Shown: piece by piece, positions 14,268 to 46,320 of the stretch | Layout of the letters: each line of letters starts with the position of its first letter | How positions within the stretch are numbered: the first letter of the stretch is position 1 | Source: Colwellia sp. | Lineage (GTDB): Bacteria > Pseudomonadota > Gammaproteobacteria > Enterobacterales > Alteromonadaceae | Direction: 5' to 3' | Assembly (NCBI RefSeq): GCF_013214175.1 | Contig: NZ_JABSPA010000002.1 | Span: 186,001-250,000, forward strand | Length of the DNA stretch: 64,000 nt | Made by a program: the position numbers and the translations under genes | The notes under the pieces: generated by a model | The model's input: the letters and a program-made list of their open reading frames with translations, nothing else | The model's database searches: none | What the model was told of the DNA's origin: nothing

Positions 14268-14699
14268 CTAAGCGTAGGCCTTAGTAAAGCTATCAATGCC
14301 GGCTTGCGCACAGCTTATATCTTGCTCTGGCGAGCCTGAACTAACGCCAATGCCACCGACTACGCTACCATTGTAGCTTAGGGGTAATCCTCCACCAACA
14401 ATGCACATACGGCCACCTAAAGCGGTATGAATACCAAATAAATTATTCTTATGGCCTGGAATACAGGCTTTATTAAATTCATGCGTCCCCTTACGTGCCG
14501 ATGCGGCGGTAAAGGCTTTATCTTGCGAAATAGTAATGCTGTGTACTTTACCGCCATCCATACGTTCAAAGGCAATTAAATTACCTGATTCATCTACAAC
14601 GGCTATACACATTGGTACGCCAAGTTCAGTGGCTTTTTGCACCGCGCCATCAATTATTGTTTTTGCTTCTGCTTGGTTTAGTCTACTTATTGTCAACAT
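14268..14699 (-). CDS. GlcG/HbpS-like (DUF336) protein of the glyoxylate/BHAC block
   Basis: The 143-residue protein is a single GlcG/HbpS domain, with GVPMCIAVVDESGNLIAFERMDG near residues 28-49 and GGLPLSYNGSVVGGIGVSSGSPEQD near the C-terminus. Family members occur in glycolate-utilisation loci (glcG) and as haem-binding HbpS. Their biochemical role in glyoxylate metabolism is not firmly known. It is downstream of, and in the same direction as, the IclR regulator, divergent from bhcBCD. That ties it to glyoxylate use. A role in binding a small metabolite or haem is inference. Confidence 0.8.
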   Translation of the reverse strand: MLTISRLNQAEAKTIIDGAVQKATELGVPMCIAVVDESGNLIAFERMDGGKVHSITISQDKAFTAASARKGTHEFNKACIPGHKNNLFGIHTALGGRMCIVGGGLPLSYNGSVVGGIGVSSGSPEQDISCAQAGIDSFTKAYA

Positions 14700-14800
14700 A
14701 GTTTCTACTCTTCTAATTTTAAAACTGGTACAGCATTATTTAGGTAAGCATATTGACGATGAGTTAATACCTAGGCTGTGAAAATATTTTGTATGGCGAC

Positions 14801-15589
14801 TTAACTGGCTTTTTTAACTGTCTGTTCGGTTTTAACAAAACCCAGCTCAATGGAAATGGACTTACCGGCTTTAACTAAATCTTTAATCCACTCATCTTTA
14901 CGTCGTTCAATTGGCGCTGACACAGATAGTCCGGCGACAACTTCGCCATATCTGTCATATAAAAGTACGCCAATACAACCTACGCCCATTTCGGCTTCTT
15001 CGTTGTCGTAAGCAAAGCCTTGTTCGACACAGCGCATACATTCGCGCTCTAAGCTTTCAATCTGTGAAAATGTTTTACGGGTATAGGTTGGTAAGTTTGT
15101 CCGTTGCGCATAACCACAAATACCTTCATGACCTTCCATGCCTAACATCATTTTTCCAACACCGGTGACATGCAATGGCGCGCGGCTACCTATAATTTGT
15201 TGAACATGCATCATTCTATTGGGCACAGCTTTTTCTACGTAAATAACGACATCACCTTCACGCGCAGTAAGGTTGATGGTTTCACCAAATTTATCACGCA
15301 GCTTTTCCATGTAGGGTAGTGCTACTTTACGAAAATCAACATTTTGGTATTGATAATTACTTAGCCTAATAAGGCGGCCACTTAACTGATATTTACCTGA
15401 ATTGTCACGGTCAACAAAATGATTGTCGATAAGAGAATGTAATATACGAAAAGCTGTAGACGGCGCTAAATTAGTATCTGCACTTAATGCTTTTAATGTT
15501 ACCGGCATGGTGTAGCGTGAAATCGCATCCAATAATGTGGCTGCTCTATCGATTACTTGAATGCGAGATTCTGGTTTAGGTTTGTTCAT
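14801..15589 (-). CDS. bhcR: IclR-family regulator of the beta-hydroxyaspartate cycle (BhcR-like)
   Basis: The 262-residue regulator has an N-terminal winged helix (about residues 8-75, with LAPSTAFRILHSL as the recognition region) and a C-terminal IclR effector domain (about 80-250, GSRAPLHVTGVGKMML and GVGCIGVLLYD). It is transcribed away from bhcBCD. In Paracoccus denitrificans an IclR-type regulator, BhcR, controls the bhc genes in response to glyoxylate. Position and family suggest the same here. Three TTTCA-N5-TGAAA-type palindromes in the shared promoter are the likely binding sites. Gene symbol by context and family, not by experiment. Confidence 0.82.
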   Translation of the reverse strand: MNKPKPESRIQVIDRAATLLDAISRYTMPVTLKALSADTNLAPSTAFRILHSLIDNHFVDRDNSGKYQLSGRLIRLSNYQYQNVDFRKVALPYMEKLRDKFGETINLTAREGDVVIYVEKAVPNRMMHVQQIIGSRAPLHVTGVGKMMLGMEGHEGICGYAQRTNLPTYTRKTFSQIESLERECMRCVEQGFAYDNEEAEMGVGCIGVLLYDRYGEVVAGLSVSAPIERRKDEWIKDLVKAGKSISIELGFVKTEQTVKKAS

Positions 15590-15657: not shown

Positions 15658-15673
15658 TTGACTCTTGTGTCAA
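15658..15673. promoter_or_regulatory. Candidate RutR-like (TetR) operator before bhcR
   Basis: TTGACTCTTGTGTCAA has perfect TTGAC/GTCAA half-sites separated by six bases, about 70 bases before the bhcR ATG. The E. coli RutR operator is TTGACCA-N2-TGGTCAA, which shares both half-sites and spacing. A RutR-like gene is at 31216-31845. Confidence 0.5.
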
Positions 15674-15733: not shown

Positions 15734-15748
15734 TTCCACATTGTGAAA
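15734..15748. promoter_or_regulatory. Candidate IclR operator 1 in bhcR-bhcB promoter region
   Basis: TTCCACATTGTGAAA is one base away from the perfect palindrome at 15835 (TTTCACATTGTGAAA). Their centres are 101 bases apart. Confidence 0.55.
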
Positions 15749-15834: not shown

Positions 15835-15849
15835 TTTCACATTGTGAAA
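15835..15849. promoter_or_regulatory. Candidate IclR operator 2 (perfect palindrome)
   Basis: TTTCACATTGTGAAA is a perfect 15-mer inverted repeat in the divergent bhcR-bhcB spacer, the best match to the inferred consensus TTTCA-N5-TGAAA. Confidence 0.65.
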
Positions 15850-15877: not shown

Positions 15878-15892
15878 TTTCATAAGGTGAAA
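15878..15892. promoter_or_regulatory. Candidate IclR operator 3
   Basis: TTTCATAAGGTGAAA keeps both outer half-sites (TTTCA, TGAAA). It lies 43 bases, about four helical turns, from operator 2. The 503-base spacer holds no ORF and contains only these sites and the two promoters. Confidence 0.55.
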
Positions 15893-16092: not shown

Positions 16093-17070
16093 ATGAGCAG
16101 TTCAACCAAACCGATTATGATCATTCCAAGCTACGAAGATGTACTCGTTGCCCATGAGCGCATTCAACCTTACATCCACAAAACACCAGTACTCACGTCA
16201 ACTCGCTTGAACGAGATGACCGGAGCTGAGTTATTCTTCAAGTGTGAAAACTTACAAAAAGCAGCGGCATTTAAAGTACGTGGTGCCTGTAATGCTGTCT
16301 TTGGTTTAACTGACGAAGAAGCAAAAATTGGTGTTGCCACTCACTCTTCCGGCAACCATGCTTTATCACTTTCATATGCTGCGGGACGACGTGGTATTCC
16401 CGTTACCGTAGTAATGCCTCGTACAGCACCACAAGCGAAGAAAGATGCGGTAATTGGCTACGGTGGCAAAATCGTAGAATGTGAGCCATCAACATCTTCT
16501 CGTGAAGCAGTATTTGCTGACGTTGTTGCCGAATCAGGTGCTGATTTTGTTCATCCATACAACGACCCTCGTGTTATTGCCGGTCAAGCGACTTGCTCTA
16601 AAGAATTGCTTGAGCAAGTTGAAAATCTTGATGCCGTAATTGCCCCTATTGGTGGTGGCGGTATGATTTCAGGTACTTGTTTAACAATTTCGAGTATTGC
16701 CCCTGACGTTAAAATTTACGCCGCCGAGCCTTTAAATGCTGATGATGCCGCGCGCTCTTTTAAAGCCGGTCACATTATTGCGGATGATGCGCCAGTAACC
16801 GTTGCCGACGGCCTTAAAGTGCCTTTAAAAGACCTAACTTGGCACTTTGTTAGCAACCACGTAACAGATATTTTCACCTGTACAGAAGAAGAAATAGTTG
16901 ATGCGATGAAACTTGTTTGGAAGACAATGAAAATCGTTATCGAGCCAAGCTCTGCGGTACCAGTAGCCTGTATTTTGAATAACCCCGAAGTGTTCAAAGG
17001 CAAGCGTGTTGGGGTAATTATCACCGGTGGTAACGTCGATTTAGACAAACTGCCGTGGATGAACAAATAA
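16093..17070 (+). CDS. bhcB: Beta-hydroxyaspartate dehydratase (BhcB)
   Basis: The 325-residue PLP enzyme is of the fold-type II serine/threonine dehydratase and serine racemase family. The PLP lysine is Lys61 in AAFKVRGACN, the phosphate-binding glycine loop is PIGGGGMISG, and HSSGNHALSLSYA is the family motif. In the BHAC it dehydrates erythro-beta-hydroxyaspartate to iminosuccinate. AGAGGAAC precedes the ATG. It starts the bhcBCD run, divergent from the IclR gene. By sequence alone it could be called threonine dehydratase or serine racemase. The adjoining BhcC and BhcD decide the assignment. Confidence 0.88.
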   Translation: MSSSTKPIMIIPSYEDVLVAHERIQPYIHKTPVLTSTRLNEMTGAELFFKCENLQKAAAFKVRGACNAVFGLTDEEAKIGVATHSSGNHALSLSYAAGRRGIPVTVVMPRTAPQAKKDAVIGYGGKIVECEPSTSSREAVFADVVAESGADFVHPYNDPRVIAGQATCSKELLEQVENLDAVIAPIGGGGMISGTCLTISSIAPDVKIYAAEPLNADDAARSFKAGHIIADDAPVTVADGLKVPLKDLTWHFVSNHVTDIFTCTEEEIVDAMKLVWKTMKIVIEPSSAVPVACILNNPEVFKGKRVGVIITGGNVDLDKLPWMNK

Positions 17071-17166
17071 GCTCGAATAGCTGTTTATTCGATAGCTAAA
17101 ACAAATTCAAATTAAGACTAAAGCTAAAAAATAAGTAAGTAAATAATTAAAATTTTGGAGAAAAAC

Positions 17167-18315
17167 ATGTCAAATGTAAGTGATTTAGAAGTAGGTTATG
17201 ACGTTCCAGCACTTCCCGGTATGGATGAAGCTGATATTCAAACACCATGTTTAGTAGTTGATTTAGACGCATTAGAGCGCAACATCGTTAAAATGGGTCA
17301 ATACGCTAAAGAAATGGGTGTTCGCCATCGTGTGCATGGCAAAATGCATAAATCTGTAGATATCGCGCTTTTACAAGAAAAGCTTGGTGATAGCTGTGGT
17401 GTATGTTGTCAAAAAGTTTCAGAAGCAGAAGTATTTGCTCGTGGCGGCATTAAAGACGTATTGGTATCTAACCAAGTACGTGATCCAGCAAAAATTGACC
17501 GTTTAGCACGTTTACCTTTATTAGGTGCTCGTACTATCGTTTGTGTTGATGATATTGATAACGTGGCTGAATTAGCCGCTGCCGTTGCTAAACATGATAC
17601 GCAAATTGAATGTCTAGTCGAGATTGATTGTGGTGCTGGCCGTTGTGGTGTTACTGAAGGCCAACCTGTTGTTGATATCGCTAAAGCGATTGCTGCAACC
17701 CCAGGTTTAACTTTCTCAGGTATTCAAGCTTACCAAGGTGCTATGCAGCACATGGAAAGCTACACAGCGCGTAAAGAGAAAATCGACATTGCTGTGGGTA
17801 TGGTTGCTCGTACTGTTGAAATGCTTAAAGCCGAAGGTCTTGAGTGTGACATCGTTGGTGGTGGTGGTACAGGTTCATACTACTTCGAAGGTAACTCAGG
17901 TGTTTTCAATGAATTACAGTGTGGTTCTTACGCGTTTATGGATGCGGATTACCAACGAATTCATGATGAAAAAGGCGAGAGAATTTCTGAATTCGAAAAC
18001 TCACTTTTCATCTTAACTTCTGTTATGAGTCACACGAAAGCAGACAAAGCTATTTGTGATGCCGGTCTTAAAGCGCAATCAGTAGATAGTGGCTTACCGT
18101 ACATCTTTGGTCGTGATGATGTTGAATACATCAAGTGTTCTGATGAGCATGGTGTTATTTCAGATCCTGCTGGCATATTAAAAGTTAATGAAAAATTAAA
18201 ACTTGTTCCCGGTCACTGTGATCCAACGTGTAACGTACATGATTACTATGTTGGTGTACGTAACGGTAAAGTAGAAACGTTATGGCCTGTATCTGCACGT
18301 GGTAAAGCATTTTAA
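17167..18315 (+). CDS. bhcC: Beta-hydroxyaspartate aldolase (BhcC)
   Basis: From ATG 17167 (TTTTGGAG six bases upstream) the product is 382 residues. A TTG at 17155 lies within the ribosome site and is rejected. It is a fold-type III PLP enzyme of the D-threonine aldolase/DSD1 family, with the PLP lysine in the HGKMHKS region (about residue 53) and a C-terminal metal site PGHCDPTCNVHD. Segments such as GYDVPALPGMDE and CGVCCQKVSEAE match what I recall of Paracoccus BhcC very closely. It condenses glycine and glyoxylate to (2R,3S)-beta-hydroxyaspartate in the cytoplasm. A repeat element separates it from bhcD. Confidence 0.92.
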   Translation: MSNVSDLEVGYDVPALPGMDEADIQTPCLVVDLDALERNIVKMGQYAKEMGVRHRVHGKMHKSVDIALLQEKLGDSCGVCCQKVSEAEVFARGGIKDVLVSNQVRDPAKIDRLARLPLLGARTIVCVDDIDNVAELAAAVAKHDTQIECLVEIDCGAGRCGVTEGQPVVDIAKAIAATPGLTFSGIQAYQGAMQHMESYTARKEKIDIAVGMVARTVEMLKAEGLECDIVGGGGTGSYYFEGNSGVFNELQCGSYAFMDADYQRIHDEKGERISEFENSLFILTSVMSHTKADKAICDAGLKAQSVDSGLPYIFGRDDVEYIKCSDEHGVISDPAGILKVNEKLKLVPGHCDPTCNVHDYYVGVRNGKVETLWPVSARGKAF

Positions 18316-18712: not shown

Positions 18713-19717
18713 ATGAGTGATTCACAAAATACTTCACCAGAAAACAAAGGCATATCAGTTGTTTCTGAAGAAATCTGTCAAGAAGTTATTGGCCGTTCAG
18801 ATGCCTTTACTGCGGTAGAAAATGTATTTGCTGCTATGGCAAAAAACACCGCTTACAACTTCCCAGTAATTCGTGAAGACATTGGTCACGCGGGTGCACT
18901 TTACGGTTTTAAATCTGGTTTTGACCGTGACGGTATGGTTTTAGGTCTTAAGTCTGGTGGTTACTGGCCAGATAATATGGCACAAGGTTTAACTAACCAT
19001 CAGTCTACTGTTATTTTATTTGATCCCGATACTGGTAAGTTAAAATCACTTGTTGGTGGTAACTATTTAACAGCGGTACGTACTGCGGCTTCTTCTTCGG
19101 TATCAATCGCTCATTTAGCGCGTAAAGACGCTAAAGTATTAGGTATGGTTGGTGCGGGTCACCAGTCTTCTTTCCAATTACGTGCTGCGGTTGAACAACG
19201 TGATTTTGAAAAAGTTGTCGCTTGGAACTTCCACCCTGAAATGCTGCCTAAGCTTGCTGCTGTGGCAGAAGAATTAGGTTTACCATTTGAGTCGGTAACT
19301 TGTGAGGAGTTATGTGCACAAGCTGACGTAATTATTACTATTACTTCTGCATTTGGCTCACTAATTGACAAAGACTGGATTAAGCCTGGTACTCACATCG
19401 CTTGTATGGGTACAGATACCAAAGGTAAACAAGAAGTTGATGTCGATATATTAGCACTTGCTACAGTCTTTACTGATGAAATTGCTCAGTCTATTACTAT
19501 CGGAGAAGCACAACACGCTGTTGCTTCTGGCTTGATCAAAGAGTCTGATATCACGCCAATTGGTGATGTTATCAATGGTACTAAACCAGGTCGTACTTCT
19601 GAAGAACAAATCACTTTGTTTGATGGTACTGGTGTTGGCCTGCAAGATTTAGCTGTTGCTTCGGTAGCTGTTGAATTAGCGGAAGCTAAAGGTTTAGCTA
19701 CTTACTTCAAACTTTAA
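18713..19717 (+). CDS. bhcD: Iminosuccinate reductase (BhcD)
   Basis: The 334-residue protein belongs to the ornithine cyclodeaminase/mu-crystallin family, with the Rossmann loop GMVGAGHQSSFQLRA near residues 144-158 and the substrate region YLTAVRTAASSSVS. In the BHAC this family member reduces iminosuccinate to aspartate with NADH, regenerating the amino donor. AGAGGATA precedes the ATG. Immediate co-orientation with bhcB and bhcC excludes a general ornithine cyclodeaminase reading. A strong terminator closes the unit at 19828-19861. Confidence 0.9.
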   Translation: MSDSQNTSPENKGISVVSEEICQEVIGRSDAFTAVENVFAAMAKNTAYNFPVIREDIGHAGALYGFKSGFDRDGMVLGLKSGGYWPDNMAQGLTNHQSTVILFDPDTGKLKSLVGGNYLTAVRTAASSSVSIAHLARKDAKVLGMVGAGHQSSFQLRAAVEQRDFEKVVAWNFHPEMLPKLAAVAEELGLPFESVTCEELCAQADVIITITSAFGSLIDKDWIKPGTHIACMGTDTKGKQEVDVDILALATVFTDEIAQSITIGEAQHAVASGLIKESDITPIGDVINGTKPGRTSEEQITLFDGTGVGLQDLAVASVAVELAEAKGLATYFKL

Positions 19718-31223: not shown

Positions 31224-31845
31224 TTAAACCACAACCTTTCAAGATAATGCTGGTAAGTGATGCAACGACTTCATCAAAATCATCATCGTTCATCGCCTCT
31301 TTACCAAAGCCAGCCAATACTTGCACATTAAAATCTGCATAATGCTGGGTTGAACTCCAAATAAGAAATAACAAATGATATGGGTTAATGGCGTCTATTT
31401 GGCCTTGTTCAATCCAGGTCTCTATTACGGAAATCTTTTCATCTAACCATTGCTTAAATTCTGTATGTAAATAGTCTTTAAGAATAGGCGCTCCGTGAAT
31501 AACTTCACTGGCAAAGATTTTAGAGCCATCAGGATCATGTTTAGCATGCATGATTTTCTCATGAATATAAGCAGTAAGAATCGTTTTCGGGTCATCATCA
31601 ACACTTAAGGTATCAAAGCTAGTATTCCAGCTGACAATAATCTCGGTAAGCAATTGCTGATAAAGGTCAGTTTTATCATTGAAATAATAATGAATGTTTG
31701 CTCTGGGAATATTGGCTCGTTCGGCAATGCGTTTAATAGATGCGCCTTTAAAACCGTGAGTAACAAACTCTGTTTTGGCTGCAGTTAAAATAAGCGCGAC
31801 GTTCTTTTGACGAACTTGTCCGACAGACTCTTTTTTTACCGGCAC
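31216..31845 (-). CDS. RutR-like TetR-family regulator of purine catabolism
   Basis: The 209-residue regulator has a TetR helix-turn-helix (about 12-60: FKGASIKRIAERANIPRANIHYYFNDKTDLY). Its ligand domain resembles E. coli RutR: the FASEVIHGAPIL segment, the HLLFLIWSSTQHYADF segment and the length (RutR 212) all correspond. RutR senses uracil/thymine and also governs purine genes, binding TTGACCA-N2-TGGTCAA. Three similar palindromes occur here at 15658, 29094 and 46397. No rut pyrimidine genes are in the window, so the ligand may be a purine intermediate. It lies downstream of malate synthase in the same direction, behind a terminator. Confidence 0.8.
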   Translation of the reverse strand: MPVKKESVGQVRQKNVALILTAAKTEFVTHGFKGASIKRIAERANIPRANIHYYFNDKTDLYQQLLTEIIVSWNTSFDTLSVDDDPKTILTAYIHEKIMHAKHDPDGSKIFASEVIHGAPILKDYLHTEFKQWLDEKISVIETWIEQGQIDAINPYHLLFLIWSSTQHYADFNVQVLAGFGKEAMNDDDFDEVVASLTSIILKGCGLTK

Positions 31846-35754: not shown

Positions 35755-37080
35755 TTAAATGCGTTCTCCCATGATATGGGTGGCTTTAACGTGCCTATCA
35801 TCACCTAATATACTTAAGGCAAATAGTTTTTCTGTTAAGGTTTTACAGCGGGCAATACGTCTTGCCATTAGCGGTGTCGCTTGGTAATCAAGTACGATAA
35901 AGTCAGCTTCAGCACCTTTAGTAAAGTTACCAATAGTACCTTCTAAATCTAAAGCAACCGCGCCACCTAAAGTCGCTAGGTAGAATGATTTAAACGGGCT
36001 TAATTTATCGCCACGTAACTGTTGAGTTTTATAAGCTTCATTTAATGTCGTTAACATTGAGAAGCTCGTACCTGCGCCGATATCAGTACCTAAACCTACA
36101 TTTACATCGAATTCCTCAGCTTGTTTTAAATTAAAACAACCGCTGCCTAAAAATAGGTTTGAAGTAGGGCAGAAGGCAATAGCTGAATTGGTATCACTTA
36201 AACGCTGACATTCATGGTCATGTAAATGTACACCGTGAGCAAAAACACTACGACGACCTAATAAGCTGCTTTTGTCGTAAACATCTAGGTAACCGTCACT
36301 GTCTGGGAATAACTCACTTACCCAAGCAATTTCGTCTTTGTTTTCTGAAAGGTGAGTGTGCAGGTAAACATCAGGGAATTCTTTTAATAATTCACCGGCT
36401 TTGTTTAATTGCTCAGTTGAACAAGTAGGTGCAAAACGAGGGGTAACCGCATAAAGTAAACGGTCGGTGTTATGCCACTTTTCAATTAATGCTTTGCTGT
36501 CTACGTAGCCTGACTCTGTGGTATCTTGTAAGTCATCAGGGCAGTTTTGGTTCATCAAAACTTTACCACAAATCATACGTAATTTTTTCTGTTGAGCAAT
36601 AGTGAAGAAGGCTTCAACAGACTCTTTATGTACTGTACCGAAAACTAAGGCCGTAGTAGTACCAGCATCTAATAGTTGTGTTAAGAAAAATTCAGCAACA
36701 CGTTTACCGTGTTCAATATCAGCGAATTGTTTTTCTTCTGGGAAGGTGTAGTTTTCTAACCACTCAAGTAATTGCGCACCGTAAGAAGCAATCATCTCAG
36801 CTTGTGGATAATGTACATGAGTATCAATAAAGCCAGGCATGATTAGGCCATTGTCATATTGAGTAACCTTAATATCTGCTGAGAGTGTTGCTAGTAATTC
36901 CTGCGCATTACCTACCGCTTCAACTAAGCCATTTTTGATGACTAAAAGTCCATCTTCAAAATATTGGTAACTATCTTCTTCAGATACTTTCGCCGGGTCG
37001 GCTAAAAAATGCAGTATCTCACCGCGGTACGCTTTGGTACCTGTGTTAGTTGAAGAACTGTTTGAAATATTATTAGACAT
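35755..37080 (-). CDS. guaD: Guanine deaminase
   Basis: The 441-residue amidohydrolase matches guanine deaminases. The zinc site begins at PGFIDTHVHYPQ (about residue 78), is continued by YLHTHLSENKDEI and FAHGVHLHDHE, and closes with GLGTDIGAG. The segment GAQLLEWLENYTFPEE is specific to this family. It converts guanine to xanthine, feeding xanthine dehydrogenase in the same gene run. Length is normal. The gap before it (37081-37196) has a small ATTCA/TGAAT inverted repeat. Confidence 0.93.
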   Translation of the reverse strand: MSNNISNSSSTNTGTKAYRGEILHFLADPAKVSEEDSYQYFEDGLLVIKNGLVEAVGNAQELLATLSADIKVTQYDNGLIMPGFIDTHVHYPQAEMIASYGAQLLEWLENYTFPEEKQFADIEHGKRVAEFFLTQLLDAGTTTALVFGTVHKESVEAFFTIAQQKKLRMICGKVLMNQNCPDDLQDTTESGYVDSKALIEKWHNTDRLLYAVTPRFAPTCSTEQLNKAGELLKEFPDVYLHTHLSENKDEIAWVSELFPDSDGYLDVYDKSSLLGRRSVFAHGVHLHDHECQRLSDTNSAIAFCPTSNLFLGSGCFNLKQAEEFDVNVGLGTDIGAGTSFSMLTTLNEAYKTQQLRGDKLSPFKSFYLATLGGAVALDLEGTIGNFTKGAEADFIVLDYQATPLMARRIARCKTLTEKLFALSILGDDRHVKATHIMGERI

Positions 37081-37196: not shown

Positions 37197-37706
37197 TTAT
37201 CCTGCTAGCGTGATAACGATTGAACCGTCGAGTTTTTCAACATCGCAGTTATCGCCTTCACCGCCACGGTCAACAACTAAAAAGTTGCTAACTTCATTCA
37301 ACGCTAAACAGAAATGGTGCCAAGTACCTTTATGGTAGTTAACGCCTTGCTCTGCTGTCGCTAGAAATACTTCAATTTTTGAAGTATCAAGCTCGCCTTT
37401 GGGGGCAACAACAACTACATAGGGTTGCTTGCCCGTAGGAATAAATGCTTGGCTGCCTAAAGGATGGCGTTCCATCATTTCGACAGGTAAAGGAAAAGCC
37501 AGCGGGGTGGAACGAAAAATATTAATCAAGGTTTTACCCTCTTGCTCAGCAACATCAACGTCAGCAAGATTATGATAACGCATGGTGTGGCCATCATTAA
37601 TGGCGAAATGTTCAGCACTTTCGGACACTGAAATAACATCCCCGTAAGCTGAGAATTTCTCTGCCGTTAGCTCTTGGGGTACAACATTAATGATTTTACT
37701 GGTCAT
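37197..37706 (-). CDS. allA: Ureidoglycolate lyase
   Basis: The 169-residue AllA-type cupin-like enzyme has YGDVISVSESAEHFAINDGHTMRYH and the late GVNYHKGTWHHFCLAL, with conserved histidines of the family. It splits ureidoglycolate to glyoxylate and urea, the last step of purine-ring carbon release, and so provides the substrate for malate synthase G, the aminotransferase and the BHAC. It lies between guaD and the HIU hydrolase gene in the same direction. Confidence 0.92.
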   Translation of the reverse strand: MTSKIINVVPQELTAEKFSAYGDVISVSESAEHFAINDGHTMRYHNLADVDVAEQEGKTLINIFRSTPLAFPLPVEMMERHPLGSQAFIPTGKQPYVVVVAPKGELDTSKIEVFLATAEQGVNYHKGTWHHFCLALNEVSNFLVVDRGGEGDNCDVEKLDGSIVITLAG

Positions 37707-37818: not shown

Positions 37819-38160
37819 TTAGCTACCACGGTAAGTAGAGTAGCCATATGCTGTTAGCAATAATGGAATATGGTAATGAGTACCGCTGGCATCAATTTCA
37901 AAAACGATATCAACGTATGGGTAAAACCCTTCTTCTTTGTTCGCGGCAAAATATTGTGCCGTGGCAAAATGCATACGGTAAACACCTGCTGGTAATTTTT
38001 CATCATCAGCTAATAAACCGGGTAAACGACCATCAGTATTAGTAACTCCGCCGTTTATCTCTTTCCAGCCTTCGCCGTCTTGAGCAAACAACGTAATTGG
38101 AACATTTTGCGCAGGTAAACCACGGGTTGTATCTAATATGTGAGTAGTAATTTGACTCAT
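37819..38160 (-). CDS. uraH: 5-hydroxyisourate hydrolase (transthyretin-like)
   Basis: The 113-residue product is a transthyretin-fold HIU hydrolase. It has the N-terminal HILDTTRGLPAQNVPI with the active-site His, a central Arg in the TNTDGRLPGLL region, and the C-terminal tetrapeptide YRGS. It hydrolyses 5-hydroxyisourate, made by PuuD, to OHCU. It has no signal peptide, so it is cytoplasmic. It is adjacent to uraD, the next enzyme, by 38 bases. Confidence 0.94.
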   Translation of the reverse strand: MSQITTHILDTTRGLPAQNVPITLFAQDGEGWKEINGGVTNTDGRLPGLLADDEKLPAGVYRMHFATAQYFAANKEEGFYPYVDIVFEIDASGTHYHIPLLLTAYGYSTYRGS

Positions 38161-38198: not shown

Positions 38199-38711
38199 CT
38201 AGCTTTCAGCTAATGCTTTATCAATGCGCAGTTGGAAGATTTTTCTTTGCTCTTCAGCAGCATTAACAAGCTCTTGCGCTCGGCTGTTTGGTAAACGAGC
38301 TTGCAATAAATCAGACATTTGTTGAGCACTTTTACCCGTTGCACAAACAATAAAGATAAAGCCGAATTTTGCTTCGTAATCGCTGTTACCTTGAGAAAGA
38401 ACTTCCAGCACAGTGTCGTTAGCTTCTTTTACTAATCCTTGCTCGTTACCGGCTAATTCTTTGGTATTGGCATACTTAGCACGTAGGCTACTAACATCAC
38501 CAATCTTTGGATGACCTTCAAAGGCTTCAAAATAATCCTGTTCAGTTAAACCTAACCAAGCATCATCAGCAGCTTTTTTTATAGCCTGCGTATTAGCAAA
38601 TGGACGAGCTACCACCATGTTGTTTACCCAAGTACTTGAAGTACAACATTGCATAAACGTATGGTTAGCATCAGCTGCTGGTAATTGGTTTAAATCTTCT
38701 AATAACATCAT
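38199..38711 (-). CDS. uraD: OHCU decarboxylase
   Basis: The 170-residue all-helical protein carries the family motif HPKIGD (catalytic His, about residue 65) and FIFIVCATGKSA near the C-terminus. It decarboxylates 2-oxo-4-hydroxy-4-carboxy-5-ureidoimidazoline to (S)-allantoin. It is directly upstream of uraH in transcript order and downstream of allantoicase, with a strong hairpin between. Confidence 0.93.
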   Translation of the reverse strand: MMLLEDLNQLPAADANHTFMQCCTSSTWVNNMVVARPFANTQAIKKAADDAWLGLTEQDYFEAFEGHPKIGDVSSLRAKYANTKELAGNEQGLVKEANDTVLEVLSQGNSDYEAKFGFIFIVCATGKSAQQMSDLLQARLPNSRAQELVNAAEEQRKIFQLRIDKALAES

Positions 38712-38744: not shown

Positions 38745-38779
38745 GCATTTAGTCAATGCCGTTGCTAATCGTGTTAACT
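38745..38779 (-). repeat. Intercistronic hairpin, alc-uraD junction
   Basis: ATTAGCAGCGGCATT (38745-38759) pairs with AATGCCGTTGCTAAT (38765-38779), with one G-T-type mismatch and a five-base loop. It reaches into the allantoicase stop codon. There is no T-run. Confidence 0.55.
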
Positions 38780-39836
38780 AACCTTGGCGGTTACCAAAAA
38801 CACGCATACGAGAAATACCACCATCAGGGAAGATACTTAAACGTACATGAGTGAAAGGCTGATCTTTTTCAACAACGATTTCTTTAGTGAATAAGTGTTC
38901 ACGATGAGCATATAACTTAGTACTTGGAATAATTGTCGACCAAGTTACGCTGGCTGCGCCTTTAGTGAAGTCATCGCTATCGCTGATACAACCTTCAAGC
39001 ATAAAGGTATCAGGGAAATTACCTTTAAAGTGACAAGTATCAATGATGACTTTGTTAACACTACCGGTAGCGGCAAGTTTAATAATTGACCAATCTGGAC
39101 CTGGATCACGACGACGTTTAGTTTCCCAACCATCACCCATGTTGGCGCCACGGCCAGGCATGATTAGGTTGTTTTTGTCTGAGAAAAACATATCAGAAAC
39201 TAATAATGCTTTTGCACCGTTTTTAATCGAAGCTAGGTCGATTAGTTCACCGTCTACAAAATCATTCCAGTTTACATCTGCTTCTCCGTAAACGCGGAAA
39301 CGAGCAATACCACCGTCAGGGAACATAGTTAAACGAACATGGGTATAAGCCGTGTCGTCTGAGATTTCAAAAAGGTTTTGGCTATGAGCTTTAACGTCAG
39401 TAGCTTCAAAAATAGTTTGCCAAACAGTATCTTCATTTGGTTGAACTTCACTTACACAAGCTTCTACAGATACTTTCTCTGGCGCGTTACCACGGAAATA
39501 GTTGGTATCAATATCAAAAGCTCGGATAACACCACTGATGCCTAAACGGATAATACACCAATCAGAGTCACGACCATTGTTACGACCGTAACTTCTGCGT
39601 GATTCCCAACCGTCCATCCATTTACCACGTTCAGTAAATTTCTCTTCGATGAAAATACCACGGCCAACTTTTAATAAGTTTTCCATTTCAGAAAAGAAAT
39701 CATCACTACATGAAAGCGTTTCGCCACCAACTTTTTCGCTGGCTAAATCAACATAATGTGTTTTTAGTTTTTGCTCTAGCACTGCATCTTCGGCAGATAA
39801 TTTATTTTGTGCTAACCAATCTTCAATTATTTCCAT
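38778..39836 (-). CDS. alc: Allantoicase
   Basis: The 352-residue product shows the internal duplication of allantoicases. Each half has a jelly-roll with a GWE(S/T)(R/K)R...DW.IIRL pattern (MDGWESRRSYGR and GDGWETKRRR) and a later ...THVRL..FPDGGI.R.RV(Y/F)G. It hydrolyses allantoate to ureidoglycolate and urea. Its use rather than allantoate amidohydrolase (AllC) means nitrogen leaves as urea, and no urease is in the window. A hairpin lies on each side of the gene. Confidence 0.93.
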   Translation of the reverse strand: MEIIEDWLAQNKLSAEDAVLEQKLKTHYVDLASEKVGGETLSCSDDFFSEMENLLKVGRGIFIEEKFTERGKWMDGWESRRSYGRNNGRDSDWCIIRLGISGVIRAFDIDTNYFRGNAPEKVSVEACVSEVQPNEDTVWQTIFEATDVKAHSQNLFEISDDTAYTHVRLTMFPDGGIARFRVYGEADVNWNDFVDGELIDLASIKNGAKALLVSDMFFSDKNNLIMPGRGANMGDGWETKRRRDPGPDWSIIKLAATGSVNKVIIDTCHFKGNFPDTFMLEGCISDSDDFTKGAASVTWSTIIPSTKLYAHREHLFTKEIVVEKDQPFTHVRLSIFPDGGISRMRVFGNRQG

Positions 39837-39989: not shown

Positions 39990-41345
39990 TTACAGCTGAC
40001 CTTTAAGTAGCGGTCGGCCTACTGGCGTGTTAATGAATTCATCTTGTTGATACACATGATGGCCACGGACAAACGTATGGTTTACTTGACCCTGCACCTT
40101 ACGACCCGCATAAGGGGTAATGTTGTGTTTGTGTTTGATCATTTCAGTGGTAATGGTGTATTCAACAGTTGGATCAAATACACAGAAATCAGCATGATTT
40201 CCTATTTTAATCGCGCCTTTAATACCATCTAAGCCAGCAAACTTAGCTGTTTCAGTAGACATCAAACGTGCTAGATCCACTAGGGTAAAACCACGGTCTT
40301 TGGCTTCAGTCCAAATTAACGATAAACCAAATTGCAGTGCTGAAATACCACCCCAGGCTTTTTCAATATCGCCAGTATCAATATGTTTTAATTCCGGTGT
40401 ACAAGGCGAGTGATCAGAAACGATAAAGTCTAAGCGGCCATCTTTAACGGCTTGCCATAAGTGTTCACGGTTTTTGTTTTCACGGATTGGCGGACAACAT
40501 TTGAATAGCGTTTTACCATCAGGAATATTTTCAGAGGCAATGGTTAAATAATGAGGACAAGTTTCAGCAGTAAAACGTAAACCTTCTGCTTTGGCTTGTG
40601 CAATAGTGCTCAATGCTTCATCAGAGGATAAGTGCACGATATGAACTTTACAGTTATCACCGGCAGCTTTAGATTCACGAGCCATATCAACCATTAACGA
40701 GATAGCATCGTTTTCCCAACTCTTTGGTCGTGATGCTAAGAACGAGTTGTATTCTTTGGTGATTTCAACATCATCAAAATGGCCACAATCAAGCTCTGCG
40801 TGGATCAAGTAAGGCACATCATGTTTGGCTAAAATAGGCATAGCGGCACGCATATCTTTCGCTGTAACAGGCGGAAACTCTTCGATACCTGAATCAATCA
40901 AAAAAGACTTAACGCCCAAAACACCAGCATCAAGTAAATCATCTAAATCATCAATATTGTGTGGCACGACACCACCCCAAAAACCACAATCAACCCAAAG
41001 TTTATCGTGCACAGAGTCGAGTTTTTCTTGAAAAGCGGCTTTGGTCGTTGTCACTGGAATACAGTTTAACGGCATATCAACTAAAGCAGTGATACCACCC
41101 GCAGCAGCTGCTTGGGTTGCGGTATTAAAACCTTCCCATTCAGTACGGCCTGGTTCGTTAATATGCACATGTGAATCAACTAGACCTGGCATGATAACTT
41201 GTTCGCCAAAGTCTTTAACTTCGCAGCTTAGCGCTTCGCCGTGACTATGAATGGCAATGATTACTTCATCTTTAACTTCAATACAAGCAGCTTGCATTTT
41301 TCCTGCAATCACTACTTGGGTACTTTGTAGAGCAAAATGGGTCAC
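39990..41345 (-). CDS. allB: Allantoinase
   Basis: The 451-residue amidohydrolase has the zinc motif PGLVDSHVHINEPGRTEWEG (about 51-70), a lysine for carbamylation in GVKSFLID (about 146), HIVHLSS, and DFIVSDHSPC near residue 310. The TEWEGF context separates allantoinase from dihydroorotase and hydantoinase. It opens allantoin to allantoate. It is preceded by xdhC in transcript order, with a 178-base gap containing a long hairpin. Confidence 0.94.
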   Translation of the reverse strand: MTHFALQSTQVVIAGKMQAACIEVKDEVIIAIHSHGEALSCEVKDFGEQVIMPGLVDSHVHINEPGRTEWEGFNTATQAAAAGGITALVDMPLNCIPVTTTKAAFQEKLDSVHDKLWVDCGFWGGVVPHNIDDLDDLLDAGVLGVKSFLIDSGIEEFPPVTAKDMRAAMPILAKHDVPYLIHAELDCGHFDDVEITKEYNSFLASRPKSWENDAISLMVDMARESKAAGDNCKVHIVHLSSDEALSTIAQAKAEGLRFTAETCPHYLTIASENIPDGKTLFKCCPPIRENKNREHLWQAVKDGRLDFIVSDHSPCTPELKHIDTGDIEKAWGGISALQFGLSLIWTEAKDRGFTLVDLARLMSTETAKFAGLDGIKGAIKIGNHADFCVFDPTVEYTITTEMIKHKHNITPYAGRKVQGQVNHTFVRGHHVYQQDEFINTPVGRPLLKGQL

Positions 41346-41523: not shown

Positions 41524-42420
41524 TTAGCTCACTTCTTCGTTGACTAAGCTTTTTAACTCTTGCCAAGCAATACCGCGTTTTGAGCTTTTTGGCTTGGCAT
41601 TTTTTTGTTTATTGGCGCTTGGGTTGGCTATGGCATTGGCAGCCAATTGTGCTTGATAAAGCTGAATGATTTCACCAGCAACCGACACGGCAACTTCCAT
41701 CGGTAATTTGCCTTGTACTTGTGCTAAACCAATAGGGCAATTCATTTTATCAACTAAACTTTTTTCAATATCGCGGTGTTGGAACCTTTGTTGAAAACGA
41801 CGCCATTTGGTATCCGAAGCAATTAAGCCTGAATAGGCAAAATCAGCGCGCTTCAAAATATTATGACTAATTTCAAAATCAAGCTGGTGATTATGTGTCA
41901 TCACTATGTAGTAGCTGTTTGCCGGCATAGCAGCCACTTCTTCAGCAGGCTCTTCGCTAACTATCGCAGTGACATTTGAATAACTGTCGATATCATCAGG
42001 AAATTGTTCAGCGCGGTTATCAACCCAAGTTATGCTACAAGGTAAACCCGCTAGAATAGGGATTAGTGCTTTACCAACATGGCCAGCACCAAATAATATG
42101 ATGTTGGCACCACTAGCGCTAAAACACTCAAATAATACGCTGGCATCACCACCGCAACATTGACCTAATTGTGCACCTAGCTGGAAATGCTCAAGTTGTT
42201 GACAAGCTTCGCCGCTAGTTAACAACTGATGAGCACGTTTAATCACCTTATGTTCAAGATGACCACCACCAATAGTGTCAAAAATATCTTCATTGGTTAT
42301 CACCATTTTGGTACCACTATTACGTGGCGTTGAACCGGTTACACCGACAATTGTGGCAACAACATAGGCTTTGCCTTGTTTGTTTAGTTGGTGAACTGCA
42401 CCGGTCCAATTTAACTTCAT
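41524..42420 (-). CDS. xdhC: XdhC, molybdenum cofactor insertion/sulfuration factor for xanthine dehydrogenase
   Basis: From ATG 42420 (GTAGGAAT upstream) the product is 298 residues. A longer reading from 42507 would overlap xdhB and adds a non-family tail. It has VVATIVGVTGSTPRNSGTKMVI at the N-terminus, CCGGDASVLFE (Cys pair) in the middle, and a Rossmann GAGHVGKAL region (about 114-122). XdhC binds and sulfurates molybdopterin before insertion into XdhB. Its place directly after xdhB fits. Confidence 0.92.
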   Translation of the reverse strand: MKLNWTGAVHQLNKQGKAYVVATIVGVTGSTPRNSGTKMVITNEDIFDTIGGGHLEHKVIKRAHQLLTSGEACQQLEHFQLGAQLGQCCGGDASVLFECFSASGANIILFGAGHVGKALIPILAGLPCSITWVDNRAEQFPDDIDSYSNVTAIVSEEPAEEVAAMPANSYYIVMTHNHQLDFEISHNILKRADFAYSGLIASDTKWRRFQQRFQHRDIEKSLVDKMNCPIGLAQVQGKLPMEVAVSVAGEIIQLYQAQLAANAIANPSANKQKNAKPKSSKRGIAWQELKSLVNEEVS

Positions 42421-42448
42421 GATGATATTCCTACCTATTGAGGGCGAA

Positions 42449-44851
42449 TTACTTCGCCGTACCCGCTGTGGTTGATGCTTTAACTGCTTCAACAGCAAAT
42501 AACACACGTTCAGGTGTAGCAGGTGTGTCTAGCTTAGGACTAACTTTGTAGTCAGCGACACTAGCAATAGCATCTTTCAATGCAGACCAAACAGCTATAC
42601 CTAACATAAACGGAGGCTCACCAACTGCTTTCGAATTGTAAATAGTACGCTCTGGATTTGGAGCATTTGGTACTAAGGCTACGCGGAAGTCTTCAGGGGC
42701 ATCATTGATAGCTGGGATCTTGTATGTTGCTGGATTGTTTGAAAGTAAACGACCTTGTTCATTCCATACTAGCTCTTCAGTAGTTAACCAACCCATGCCC
42801 TGAACAAAAGCACCTTCGATTTGACCGATATCAATCGCTGGATTAATTGAAGCACCAACATCTTGTAAGATATCAGTACGGGTAACTTTGTACTCACCTG
42901 TTAAGGTATCTATGATTACTTCAGAAACACAAGCACCTGTGGCGAAGTAGTAGAATGGACGTCCTTTACCAGCAGCACGGTCATAGTGAATCTTAGGTGT
43001 TTTGTAGAATCCTGTAGAAGATAATGAAACACGATTCATGTAAGCAATTTGAGAGAACTCAGCAAAACTAAAGGTTTGCTCACCAACAATAACATTGTTG
43101 TTTTCAAATTGAACTTGTCCAGCTTCAACGTCATATTTCTCACAAGCAAAGTCTATTAAACGTTGTTTGATGGTTTTAGCAGCCGCTTCAGCTGCTTTAC
43201 CATTTAAGTCGGTACCTGAAGAGGCAGCTGTAGGAGATGAGTTTGGTACTTTATCAGTACGAGCAGCAGAACAAGCAACAGTATCAACATCAACTTGGAA
43301 TTCTTCAGCAACAATTTGCGCTACTTTAGTATTCAAGCCTTGACCCATCTCACTACCACCGTGGCTTAAGTGAATTGTGCCATCAGTGTAAACATGAACG
43401 AGTGCACCAGCTTGGTTTAAATGCTGAACAGTAAAAGAAATACCAAATTTAACCGGTGTTAAGGCAATACCTTTTTTCAGTATGCTGCTATTAGCATTAT
43501 ATTCAGTGATTGCTTGACGACGTGCTTGGTAATCTGAACTTTCTTCTAATGAGTCAATAATTTCGCTTAAGTTGTTATGTTCAACTGTCTGATCATAATG
43601 GGTAACGTTTCGTTCATCTTTACCGTATAAGTTAATTTTACGGATTTCTAATGGATCTTTACCTAGATGACGAGCAATTTCATCCATGATTAATTCGATA
43701 GTCATCATACCTTGAGGACCACCAAAACCACGGTAAGCGGTATGAGAAACAGTGTTTAGTTTACAACGGTTACCGGTAATAGTTGCTTGGTCTAAGTAGT
43801 AAGCATTATCTGAGTGGAACATTGCCCGATCAACAATCGCATCAGATAAATCTGGTGAGTAACCACAGTTACCATTTACTTCGATGTTGACGCCTTTGAT
43901 TTGACCTTTTTCGTCAAAACCAACGGTGTAGTTGTTTTCAAATGGGTGACGTTTACCTGTCATTACCATATCGTCTAAACGAGCTAACTTAAACTTAACA
44001 GGTCGTTTTGTTTCATTAGCAAGTAAAGCGGCAATACATGCCCACGGTGCAGCTTGGGTTTCTTTACCACCGAAACCACCACCCATACGGCGCATATCCA
44101 CTAAAACTTTGTTTAGTGGAATATCAAGTACTTCAGCTACTAACTTTTGTACTTCACTTGGATGTTGTGAAGAGGTGTAAATGTTCATGCCACCATCTTC
44201 AGTAGGCTCTGCCGTTGAAACTTGGCCTTCAAGATACATATGCTCTTGACCACCAACTTTGATTTCACCAGATAATTGATGCTCGGCAGCTGCAATAGCT
44301 GAGTCTGAATCGCCACGTTTCAAACTATGTGGAGGACGAACAAAGTTTTTCTTAGCTAAAGCGTCTTTCACTGTAAGTACAGCTTCAAGTTCTTCATACT
44401 CAATTTTTGCAAGTTTAACGGCTTTACGCGCAAGGTCGAAACTTGTTGCTGCAACGGCGAAAAGCGGTTGACCAACAAACTCTACTTTACCAATAGCTAA
44501 TACTGGGTCACCTGGGAATACCGGACCGATATCAGTATGACCTGGTACATCTTCAACGGTAATTACTTTTACAACACCTTCTGCAGCTTTAACTGCAGAT
44601 AAGTCCATTGAAATGATGTTAGCGTGTGCCATGGTTGATTGACCAACCGCTGCATGTAATTCGCCACGAAGAGAAGGACGGTCATCAACATAAATCGCTG
44701 CACCAGCAACTTGTTTGTCAGCACTTTCGTGTTTTTTAGAGCGACCAACGCCACCTAAGCCAATACCAACTTGACCGTTAATAACTGTTTTATCTGTGTT
44801 TGTTTGTACTTTATTAGTAACGGCTTTTTTTACATCAATAAGACTACGCAT
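42449..44851 (-). CDS. xdhB: Xanthine dehydrogenase, molybdenum-binding subunit
   Basis: The 800-residue large subunit has GGQEHMYLEGQ, RMGGGFGGKETQ (about 265-276), the substrate-pocket segment AYRGFGGPQGM, and GSEMGQGLNTKVAQI with the following catalytic region up to the late Glu of VGEPPFMLGIA. It oxidises hypoxanthine and xanthine to urate. The start codon shares one base with the xdhA stop (TAATG), so translation is coupled. Length agrees with bacterial XdhB. Confidence 0.94.
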   Translation of the reverse strand: MRSLIDVKKAVTNKVQTNTDKTVINGQVGIGLGGVGRSKKHESADKQVAGAAIYVDDRPSLRGELHAAVGQSTMAHANIISMDLSAVKAAEGVVKVITVEDVPGHTDIGPVFPGDPVLAIGKVEFVGQPLFAVAATSFDLARKAVKLAKIEYEELEAVLTVKDALAKKNFVRPPHSLKRGDSDSAIAAAEHQLSGEIKVGGQEHMYLEGQVSTAEPTEDGGMNIYTSSQHPSEVQKLVAEVLDIPLNKVLVDMRRMGGGFGGKETQAAPWACIAALLANETKRPVKFKLARLDDMVMTGKRHPFENNYTVGFDEKGQIKGVNIEVNGNCGYSPDLSDAIVDRAMFHSDNAYYLDQATITGNRCKLNTVSHTAYRGFGGPQGMMTIELIMDEIARHLGKDPLEIRKINLYGKDERNVTHYDQTVEHNNLSEIIDSLEESSDYQARRQAITEYNANSSILKKGIALTPVKFGISFTVQHLNQAGALVHVYTDGTIHLSHGGSEMGQGLNTKVAQIVAEEFQVDVDTVACSAARTDKVPNSSPTAASSGTDLNGKAAEAAAKTIKQRLIDFACEKYDVEAGQVQFENNNVIVGEQTFSFAEFSQIAYMNRVSLSSTGFYKTPKIHYDRAAGKGRPFYYFATGACVSEVIIDTLTGEYKVTRTDILQDVGASINPAIDIGQIEGAFVQGMGWLTTEELVWNEQGRLLSNNPATYKIPAINDAPEDFRVALVPNAPNPERTIYNSKAVGEPPFMLGIAVWSALKDAIASVADYKVSPKLDTPATPERVLFAVEAVKASTTAGTAK

Positions 44852-46320
44852 TAGTAATTCACCACTCGTGTTTCAATAACTTCTCTTGTATGGGCACTCT
44901 GTAGCTCTAAATAGCACTTTTCAATAAGGTTTTGAGCAACTGTCATACGGTACTTATCAGAAGCTCGTACATCAGTCATAGGTTGGAAGTCAGTTGCTAA
45001 CGCCGCTTTTGCTAGCGCTACGGATTCTTTTGTTAAATCTTTGCCTAATAATGCAGCTTCTGCTGCTGGACCACGTTTAGGGATTGCAGCCATGCCGCCG
45101 AATGCTAAACGTACCTTAGTAATTTTTTGACCATCTTGCTCGATGAAAAACGCTGCTAATACCGCAGAAATATCATCATCTAAACGTTTAGAGATCTTGT
45201 AAAGTTTAAGTGTTTGACCCGCAACAGGCTTAGGAATTTGAATTGATTTGATAAATTCAGAAGTTTGCAGAACAGTCTTTTTGTAATCAACAAAATAGTC
45301 TTCAACTAAAATTGTACGCTCCACGCCGTTAAGGTGTAGTGTCATTGTTGCGCCAAGAGCGATAAGTGCAGGAGGCATATCACCGATAGGTGAAGCATTA
45401 CCTACGTTACCGCCTAAAGTACCAGTGTTACGTACTTGCTTTGCACCAATACGTTCGATCATGTCACCTAAGTCAGGGTAGTAATGGTGTAAAGTATCGA
45501 TAAACTCGCTGTAAGGTACTGCTGAACCGATAACGATTTCAGTATCAGTTTCTTCAAGGGTAGTTAATTCTGCAACATTACCAATATAAACAAGCTTTTT
45601 AACAACGGCTAAGTTTTGCGTAACTGAAAGTGCTAAATCGGTACCACCAGCAAGTAACGTTGATTTAGGCTCTCTGACTAGTTCAGTCGCTAACTCATCA
45701 ATGTTTTGAGGAGCAAGATAAGTATTACCATTGCCATTTAATGTTGGTGTTGGTAATTTTGTGAATTCGTTAAGCGTAGCAAGTGTGTCTTGGTAGTGCT
45801 TAGCAAAAGAATCATCATCAGTATTTTCGCTTGAAGTGATAGCTGCATCAATAATAGAACGGTAGCCAGTACAACGACATAAGTTACCCGCTAAAGCTTC
45901 AAGAACTTCATCACGATTTGGGTTTTGATTATGTTTGTGTAAAGCAAAAGAAGACATTACAAAACCAGGGGTACAGAAACCACATTGTGTACCATGGTTG
46001 TCTACAATAGTTTGTTGAGCGTGATGTAACTTAGCGCCGTCTTTCAAATCTTCAACTGTAATTAGTTGCTTACCGTGTAAGTTACCAACAAAAGTAATAC
46101 AAGCATTAACTGCTTTGTAGTTAAGTTGTTTGCTGTTTTCAGCATCTAGCTCAGCTAGTACTACGGTACAAGCACCACAGTCACCTGAAGCACAACCTTC
46201 TTTTGTGCCAGATTTAAATTGTTGCTCACGTAAGTATTGTAAAACAGTCGTATTAGGATCTAAGTTTTCAATCTCTACAACATCGTTGTTCAACAGGAAT
46301 TTTATTGTATTTGCTACCAT
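44851..46320 (-). CDS. xdhA: Xanthine dehydrogenase, iron-sulfur/FAD subunit
   Basis: The 489-residue small subunit has an N-terminal plant-type 2Fe-2S cluster (GCASGDCGACTVV, residues about 42-54), a second 2Fe-2S domain (CGFCTPGFVM and NLCRCTGYRSI), and an FAD domain from about residue 190 (LLAGGTDLA; TLGGNVGNASPIGD). It passes electrons from the Mo centre to NAD. It is the first gene of the minus-strand purine run. TTGACAC-type and TTTCA-N5-TGAAA-type palindromes lie 77-298 bases upstream. Confidence 0.95.
   Translation of the reverse strand: MVANTIKFLLNNDVVEIENLDPNTTVLQYLREQQFKSGTKEGCASGDCGACTVVLAELDAENSKQLNYKAVNACITFVGNLHGKQLITVEDLKDGAKLHHAQQTIVDNHGTQCGFCTPGFVMSSFALHKHNQNPNRDEVLEALAGNLCRCTGYRSIIDAAITSSENTDDDSFAKHYQDTLATLNEFTKLPTPTLNGNGNTYLAPQNIDELATELVREPKSTLLAGGTDLALSVTQNLAVVKKLVYIGNVAELTTLEETDTEIVIGSAVPYSEFIDTLHHYYPDLGDMIERIGAKQVRNTGTLGGNVGNASPIGDMPPALIALGATMTLHLNGVERTILVEDYFVDYKKTVLQTSEFIKSIQIPKPVAGQTLKLYKISKRLDDDISAVLAAFFIEQDGQKITKVRLAFGGMAAIPKRGPAAEAALLGKDLTKESVALAKAALATDFQPMTDVRASDKYRMTVAQNLIEKCYLELQSAHTREVIETRVVNY

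Follow-up and report, generated by a model that had tools for sequence, protein, structure and literature searches.

A candidate purine-to-aspartate unit in Colwellia: purine degradation genes linked to a beta-hydroxyaspartate cycle without canonical BhcA

Genes of the bhc group and of the purine run

A 64,000-nucleotide stretch of a Colwellia sp. genome (contig NZ_JABSPA010000002.1; the whole stretch is referred to below as the window) carries genes of the beta-hydroxyaspartate cycle (BHAC) together with a long run of purine degradation genes. The genome comprises 5.0 Mb in 19 contigs, and its completeness is rated at 100%. We scanned 30 window proteins against NCBIfam and 10 against Pfam. 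Three genes on the forward strand scored above the cut-offs of the respective NCBIfam equivalog models: bhcB, for beta-hydroxyaspartate dehydratase (16,093–17,070; NF045641, 598.5 bits, cut-off 550), bhcC, for 3-hydroxy-D-aspartate aldolase (17,155–18,315; NF045642, 725 bits, cut-off 690), and bhcD, for iminosuccinate reductase (18,713–19,717; NF045643, 576.5 bits, cut-off 500). The closest named relatives of the BhcC protein come from Colwellia species (94% identity), and carriers of the unit with names include Colwellia demingiae, Colwellia psychrerythraea GAB14E and Thalassotalea sp. ND16A. Its best relative in the Protein Data Bank (PDB) is 6qkb (640 bits, aligned over residues 7–386), and that of BhcD is 6rqa (412 bits). 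Divergently from bhcB, on the reverse strand, lies a gene for an IclR-family regulator (14,801–15,589) in which Pfam finds IclR_C. The regulator scores 154.8 bits with the BhcR model NF045644, below the equivalog cut-off of 350, and we call it BhcR-like; three other gammaproteobacterial IclR copies score 152–158 bits with this model and one alphaproteobacterial copy scores 403 bits. An earlier, sequence-only reading of the window had named bhcB, bhcC and bhcD candidates with an IclR gene, and the scans bear it out.

The purine genes form a same-strand run that extends on the reverse strand from xdhA (46,320) to a TetR gene (31,216), with intergenic gaps of −59 to 244 bases. The order is xdhA (44,851–46,320; TIGR02963, 600 bits), xdhB (42,449–44,851; TIGR02965, 1331 bits), the xanthine dehydrogenase accessory gene xdhC (41,524–42,507; TIGR02964, 308 bits), the allantoinase gene allB (39,990–41,345; TIGR03178, 582 bits), the allantoicase gene alc (38,778–39,836; TIGR02961, 411 bits), the OHCU decarboxylase gene uraD (38,199–38,711; TIGR03180, 206.5 bits), all of them over their cut-offs, followed by the hydroxyisourate hydrolase gene uraH (37,819–38,160), which was placed from its translation and its conserved slot in relatives alone, the ureidoglycolate lyase gene allA (37,197–37,706; NF002954, 284.7 bits, cut-off 212), the guanine deaminase gene guaD (35,755–37,080; TIGR02967, 633.5 bits, cut-off 375), the membrane urate oxidase gene puuD (34,343–35,530; PF06181, Urate_ox_N, 406.6 bits), a malate synthase G gene (32,090–34,279; NF002825, 1192 bits; TIGR01345, 1077 bits, cut-off 989) and the gene of a RutR-like TetR-family regulator (31,216–31,845). 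The latter protein scores 174.3 of the 368 bits required by TIGR03613, and its best PDB match is RutR, 3loc. The purine route listed in the sequence-only reading is thus present with all of its genes. That list was right as given. What it had overlooked is the lack of bhcA, the gene of malate synthase G and that of the TetR protein, the aminotransferase described below, and the candidate operators common to both gene groups. Through such a route purines are oxidized to allantoin, from which allantoicase and AllA then give glyoxylate and two urea.

Between the bhc group and the purine run there are a malic enzyme gene (25,119–26,366; Pfam malic and Malic_M), a gene for a multi-pass membrane protein of 513 amino acids (26,524–28,065) and a gene for a Tsx-like nucleoside channel (28,173–29,000; PF03502, 31.6 bits, cut-off 27.2), all on the reverse strand, and a class-V aminotransferase gene on the opposite strand. 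The proposed uptake genes fared unequally. Tsx passes Pfam, as does the malic enzyme that had been assigned next to it. The 513-residue protein has no Pfam family at an E value of 0.001 and no PDB relative, so the label of a possible permease rests on its hydrophobic sequence. On the far side of the bhc regulator gene lies a gene for an HbpS/GlcG-like protein (14,268–14,699, reverse strand; PF03928, 135.7 bits); such a gene adjoins iclR in 16 of 24 gammaproteobacterial bhc loci.

No gene of the genome reached the BhcA cut-off of 650 bits (NF045640). The best score, 213.8–214.6 bits, belongs to the class-V aminotransferase gene (29,188–30,309, forward strand). Among the 15 further genomes searched, canonical BhcA was found in two, Marinomonas MED121 and Rhodovulum; none was over the cut-off in 12 genomes of the Colwellia/Shewanella/Thalassotalea type, nor in the Solemya symbiont. 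In all 13 BhcA-less genomes (our own and the 12 like it) a copy of the aminotransferase gene shares a contig with bhcC, at a distance of about 7–16 kb. The profile match to the G154 copy spans a stop codon, yet the open frame is 373 amino acids long. The top PDB match of the window protein is alanine-glyoxylate aminotransferase 1vjo (356 bits, residues 6–371 of 373), followed by further enzymes of this type (AGXT) and then by PucG, a ureidoglycine-glyoxylate aminotransferase (3isl, 248 bits). Since the best match is of the AGXT type and the allantoicase route yields no ureidoglycine, we rejected the identification as PucG. Unlike AGXT as such, the window enzyme sits in a purine and bhc neighborhood. 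We consider BhcA to be probably replaced here by the AGXT-like aminotransferase, which would make glycine for BhcC.

A quick tree of the aminotransferases places the Colwellia cluster copies in one supported group and eight general copies in another. The remaining cluster copies form a third group (92%), near which the general-type copies of G019 and G047 are found, and the cluster copies do not unite into one clade. Copies of the two kinds, cluster and general, are found together in genomes G135, G101 and G143. As a marker of bhc the gene was discarded: 116 of 147 genomes from the family contain relatives of it, with close copies in bhc-less genomes too. The aminotransferase, the permease and the bhc unit are all found at two Shewanella loci, L045 and L049, the former with malate synthase G and puuD in addition. 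In the tree, both aminotransferases fall into one group with the G052 copy, and the unit may thus have been transferred as a whole. Separately, the Solemya velum gill symbiont has a bhcBCD locus (L076) in a genome without bhcA over the cut-off and without full-length puuD. It adds a further case lacking BhcA, in which the glyoxylate has another origin. In G037 (C6:1217259), G093 (C27:89398) and others, a distant aminotransferase (33–37% identity) shares the puuD contig, about 13–15 kb off in these two; it is probably PucG, an alternative ending of purine breakdown.

Linkage of bhc and purine genes in other genomes

For comparison we used 147 genomes from the family to which the window belongs. 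Five of them have BhcC over the cut-off, each with full-length puuD on the same contig, about 5–21 kb away. Full-score allA was found in 27 of the 147 genomes, the five with BhcC included (hypergeometric p = 1.5e-4, uncorrected for kinship). The proximity of bhc and puuD is more than chance. Gene order differs among these genomes. In G003, G052 and G101, bhcD lies about 0.7–1.7 kb from the TetR–malate synthase–puuD end of the purine run, and the other side of bhc carries a SulP transporter, an NCS2 purine permease, hypoxanthine phosphoribosyltransferase and the aminotransferase. The tsx and malic enzyme genes are also on that side in G003; the stretches of G052 and G101 end before. The window and G135 share an acetyltransferase and AraC block between bhcD and malic enzyme, with a pilin gene in addition in the window block.

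Two relatives show what may be remains of the same arrangement. Locus L138 (G048, C122) has a short bhcD remnant at 16,695–16,952, adjoining malate synthase and puuD, in a genome with no BhcC match over the cut-off; it is likely a decayed bhc unit. In L121 (G041), a BhcR-like IclR gene (18,788–19,576) adjoins puuD and no bhcBCD is seen. We take the bhcD remnant and the lone IclR gene as traces of an older unit in which the two groups were joined and from which genes have since been lost.

In a wider set, we examined 23 gammaproteobacterial genomes with bhcC (G409 is, by its places, G101 again). Full-length puuD was present in 21 of these 23 genomes and lay on the same contig within 40 kb in 14. 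One of these 14, an Oceanospirillales bin, has canonical BhcA (733 bits); in another, Amphritea, the aminotransferase next to bhcB resembles BhcA (unscored). In two loci of the Oceanospirillales type, L052 (12,311–13,204) and L048 (12,523–13,371), a gene for a PEP-mutase-family protein directly follows bhcD (by Pfam in L052 and by a similar start in L048); its product is perhaps an oxaloacetate decarboxylase, passing the product to pyruvate.

Among 248 Rhodobacteraceae genomes, BhcC was over the cut-off in 105. The allA place was among the matches listed for 70 of the 105; of the other 35, seven are without allA and 28 were unplaced. Among the matches listed, bhcC lies within 10 kb of allA in 29 of the 70, where the chance of such proximity is about 0.5% per genome, uncorrected for kinship. 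Co-occurrence of bhcC and allA was dropped as evidence for this family, since 229 of the 248 genomes have allA, so the Rhodobacteraceae evidence is limited to linkage. The gene order can be unlike that of the gammaproteobacteria, as in L101: bhcABCD, a GAPDH-family gene, allA, a deacetylase/OHCU-decarboxylase fusion, uraH and puuD. When 80 bhcC loci were considered together, a ureide gene was found within 10 kb of bhcC in 18 of 57 judgeable loci, a count that favors positives as the 23 loci set aside were those with short flanks and no ureide gene, and in 16 of 55 loci with both flanks full. A quick BhcC tree that included the window as well as the 80 loci, and in which many forks are weak, requires 11 or more changes of the linked state. 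A location of bhcC near allA or puuD, noticed at first in the window, thus recurs both in relatives and in part of the Rhodobacteraceae.

Candidate operators common to the two gene groups

The gap between iclR and bhcB contains the palindrome TTTCACATTGTGAAA (15,835–15,849) and two near copies, TTCCACATTGTGAAA (15,734–15,748) and TTTCATAAGGTGAAA (15,878–15,892), which we call BhcR-like boxes. The full 15-base pattern with up to three mismatches matches the window 14 times versus 5.0 expected, a number reached by none of 100 shuffles. With a matrix built from sites that included those of the window itself, five window sites score at least 17 bits versus 0.05 expected per 64 kb. Three of them are at bhc, one is 283 bases before xdhA (46,604–46,618, 22.2 bits) and one directly behind the aminotransferase gene (30,428–30,442, 19.8 bits). 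An independent matrix, from gammaproteobacterial loci with canonical bhcA, ranks the site at 46,604 third in the window. A box with at most three mismatches is present in the iclR/bhcB gap of all 25 gammaproteobacterial loci with a clear iclR match (two pairs represent the same genome), and 17 of 56 loci from outside this class have a box of at least 13 bits before bhcA.

The box before xdhA is found at a constant distance in 7 of 14 stretches with bhc and in none of six stretches without it. Alignment of these seven upstream regions shows conservation of the box and of the last ~90 bases before the gene, and the intervening part has changed. In six of the seven bhc-containing stretches without the xdhA box (G003, G052, G151, G150, G156 and G408), a box lies ~205–235 bases before the NCS2 permease gene; G154 has merely 13.6 bits before xdhA. 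In L051 (G152), where the xdhA start is outside the view, a 17.1-bit box precedes uraD. The NCS2 permease genes of bhc-less G143 and G007 are without a box. G041, which is also bhc-less and has kept the IclR gene, has one of 17.3 bits at its NCS2 permease gene, and boxes at the permease and hpt genes remain in L122. The 19.8-bit site behind the aminotransferase gene has a partner at 30,375–30,389 (15.9 bits), 53 bases apart. Both are retained in several relatives, and no clear target for them was found in the window; elsewhere, in some genomes, a box lies 17–18 bases before hpt.

For a different palindrome, TTGACACTTGTGTCAA, the window contains no more than three sites: 76 bp before xdhA (46,397–46,412), between tsx and the aminotransferase gene (TTGACACATGTGTCAG, 29,094–29,109) and about 69 bp before iclR, in the iclR/bhcB gap (TTGACTCTTGTGTCAA, 15,658–15,673). 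Six strand matches were counted in the window versus 0.99 expected, a number that 1 of 100 shuffles reached. With at most two mismatches outside the center, the site before xdhA recurs in all 19 relatives of the set compared, those without bhc included; it is missing in G038, whose xdhA is just 41% identical. The site in the iclR/bhcB gap was found in 11 of the 20 gammaproteobacterial bhc genomes scanned, the window included, namely in window-type Colwellia, G003 and L043. The TTGAC half-sites are those of E. coli RutR, and we take the palindrome to be a RutR-like box. As a RutR relative closes the purine run, we assign it to the TetR protein (31,216–31,845), which would bind it. RutR itself is described, in an excerpt of PMC5343134, as a pyrimidine regulator; the window protein, at less than half of the model's cut-off, has purine and bhc genes as its predicted targets.

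The fate of glyoxylate from purines

A glyoxylate carboligase, considered as a sink for glyoxylate, was over the cut-off in 0 of the 147 family genomes and in 1 of 14 control genomes run alongside; the lower-scoring matches in 144 of the 147 are presumably acetolactate synthases. The glycerate pathway is therefore probably not the sink. For glycolate as a source, the search covered GlcD alone: none of the five family genomes with bhc had it over the cut-off, the best match in our own genome being 141 bits, and 2 of the 14 controls passed. The malate synthase G encoded in the purine run offers glyoxylate a genuine second exit. We compared the purine runs of seven bhcC-less relatives with allA and of an eighth, G038, without it. 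Allantoicase and malate synthase G occur together in G048, as they do in G036 and G112. Neither was found in the stretches covered of G007, G041 and G091, and no allantoicase in that of G143, which starts at puuD, so that malate synthase may lie outside. Malate synthase requires acetyl-CoA; glyoxylate alone thus gives no net C3 or C4 compound through this enzyme.

We think it likely that the region is a purine-to-aspartate unit, in which a purine-fed hydroxyaspartate cycle without canonical BhcA would operate alongside malate synthase G. What the analysis shows of it is the family membership of the genes as judged by sequence, their conserved linkage and the common palindromes at conserved places. 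According to this scheme, purines would enter through the Tsx channel and the putative permease and be degraded through allantoin, with allantoicase and AllA releasing glyoxylate and two urea. Glyoxylate would have two exits, malate synthase G with malic enzyme, likely an energy route, and the BHAC, with net formation of C4. In the cycle, the AGXT-like enzyme rather than BhcA would convert glyoxylate to glycine, BhcC would condense glycine with glyoxylate, BhcB would lead to iminosuccinate and BhcD to aspartate. The promoters would be tied together by the RutR-like TetR protein as a sensor of a purine intermediate and by the BhcR-like IclR protein as a sensor of glyoxylate. In this scheme we infer the pairing of proteins with boxes, the ligands sensed, what the aminotransferase acts on and the flux.

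Several observations weigh against this reading. G003 probably has a glycolate oxidase, as its GlcD scores 536.5 of 567.9 bits and a second match to the GlcD model lies directly behind. All of the glyoxylate could be consumed by the malate synthase G of the purine run, an enzyme that G036 and G112, both bhc-less, likewise combine with allantoicase in their purine runs. A looser BhcR-like pattern, TTCACANNGTGAA, with two mismatches, was not enriched in the window (26 matches versus 22.4 expected) and was set aside. The BhcR-like box is missing before xdhA in 7 of the 14 bhc-containing stretches, and the NCS2 permease gene of L051 (G152) has none. In 13 linked alphaproteobacterial loci no such box of 13 bits was found at ureide genes. 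Of the 20 gammaproteobacterial bhc genomes scanned, 9 have no RutR-like box between iclR and bhcB. In 41 of the 70 Rhodobacteraceae genomes, bhcC and the listed allA are either over 10 kb apart or on different contigs, and the presence of allA is not enriched with bhc in this family (98 of 105 genomes with bhc versus 131 of 143 others). Finally, the aminotransferase family is as common as stated above, and G041, G091 and G143, all bhc-less, have close copies.

Some of these points favor an alternative in which malate synthase G and malic enzyme alone would handle the glyoxylate from purines, bhcBCD would be a neighbor serving another source, for instance glycolate or the glyoxylate of isocitrate lyase, and the glyoxylate-sensing regulator would be all the two have in common. 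Malate synthase G does lie between puuD and the TetR gene, as in the purine runs without bhc, and the BHAC has been established experimentally for glycolate, in Paracoccus, according to an excerpt of PMC11323563. On the other hand, GlcD, the sole source enzyme searched, is over the cut-off in none of the five bhc genomes, BhcR-like and RutR-like boxes alike are found at promoters of purine genes and of bhc, malate synthase acting on glyoxylate alone would give no net C3 or C4, and no carboligase is over the cut-off. We regard this alternative as rather improbable. Less probable still, and in our opinion very unlikely, is that without BhcA the bhcBCD genes form no cycle and act as a 3-hydroxyaspartate catabolic module or a nitrogen-salvage step, with the aminotransferase merely detoxifying glyoxylate to glycine. 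The absence of BhcA over the cut-off from our own genome and from 12 of 12 like it fits such a module, as does the aminotransferase in the purine neighborhood of G041. On the other side, this gene is on the bhcC contig in our own genome and in all 12 like it, the window copy has a RutR-like box that is also found before iclR/bhcB, and its nearest solved relatives are glyoxylate aminotransferases.

The sequence-only reading had also assigned the cycle to purine carbon. A lack of co-occurrence of bhcC and purine genes in related genomes would have counted against this assignment, and they were found to co-occur and to stay linked. The linkage, the common candidate operators, the lack of a carboligase over the cut-off and the lack of GlcD in the five bhc genomes are in line with this part, to which malate synthase G now adds a second sink. 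Its further claim of a stand-alone catabolic unit does not hold, because there is no canonical BhcA and because malate synthase G takes glyoxylate too, being the only one of the two sinks in G036 and G112.

The purine-to-aspartate unit can be compared with known systems. It resembles the BHAC of Paracoccus denitrificans (bhcABCD and BhcR) in its BhcB, BhcC and BhcD over the cut-offs, in the adjoining divergent IclR gene and in the type of promoter palindrome, which recurs in 17 of the 56 loci mentioned above. It differs from that system in lacking BhcA, in a regulator below the BhcR cut-off, in being joined to purine genes and not to glycolate oxidase, and in the adjoining malate synthase G. 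In E. coli, allantoin and glyoxylate are handled by the AllR regulon with gcl, glxR and glxK. The window shares with it ureide breakdown, a putative net assimilation of glyoxylate and an IclR-family regulator, presumably glyoxylate-sensing here too, but would have the hydroxyaspartate cycle in place of the carbon-losing glycerate pathway. According to excerpts of PMC11323563, purines and allantoin are further origins of glyoxylate, and the binding of BhcR to the bhc promoter depends on glyoxylate. Excerpts of PMC11323563, PMC11166783 and PMC10499878 report no linkage of bhc to purine genes, and no report of the pairing was found in the open literature as judged by titles and the beginnings of abstracts.

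With somewhat more confidence than doubt, we extend this reading to a BhcA-less purine-fed cycle closed by an AGXT-type enzyme, in which two sensors, of a purine intermediate and of glyoxylate, would have boxes on promoters of uptake, degradation and assimilation, which would make nucleobases a source of net carbon in cold-sea bacteria, and whose joining to purine genes would take at least two forms of gene order, found in different classes. Such a two-regulator circuit is open to simple promoter assays, and the reading predicts which marine bacteria grow on allantoin as the sole carbon source. A version of the cycle without BhcA would be useful for engineering plants or ethylene glycol-consuming strains. 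What is known of the hydroxyaspartate cycle is its role in glycolate use; should the reading be true, it would also be the carbon-saving end of purine breakdown. The joining of purine and bhc genes and their apparently common control sites suggest that some marine bacteria may build biomass from the bases of DNA and RNA, and purines of dead cells would then feed biomass in these bacteria beyond their nitrogen demand.

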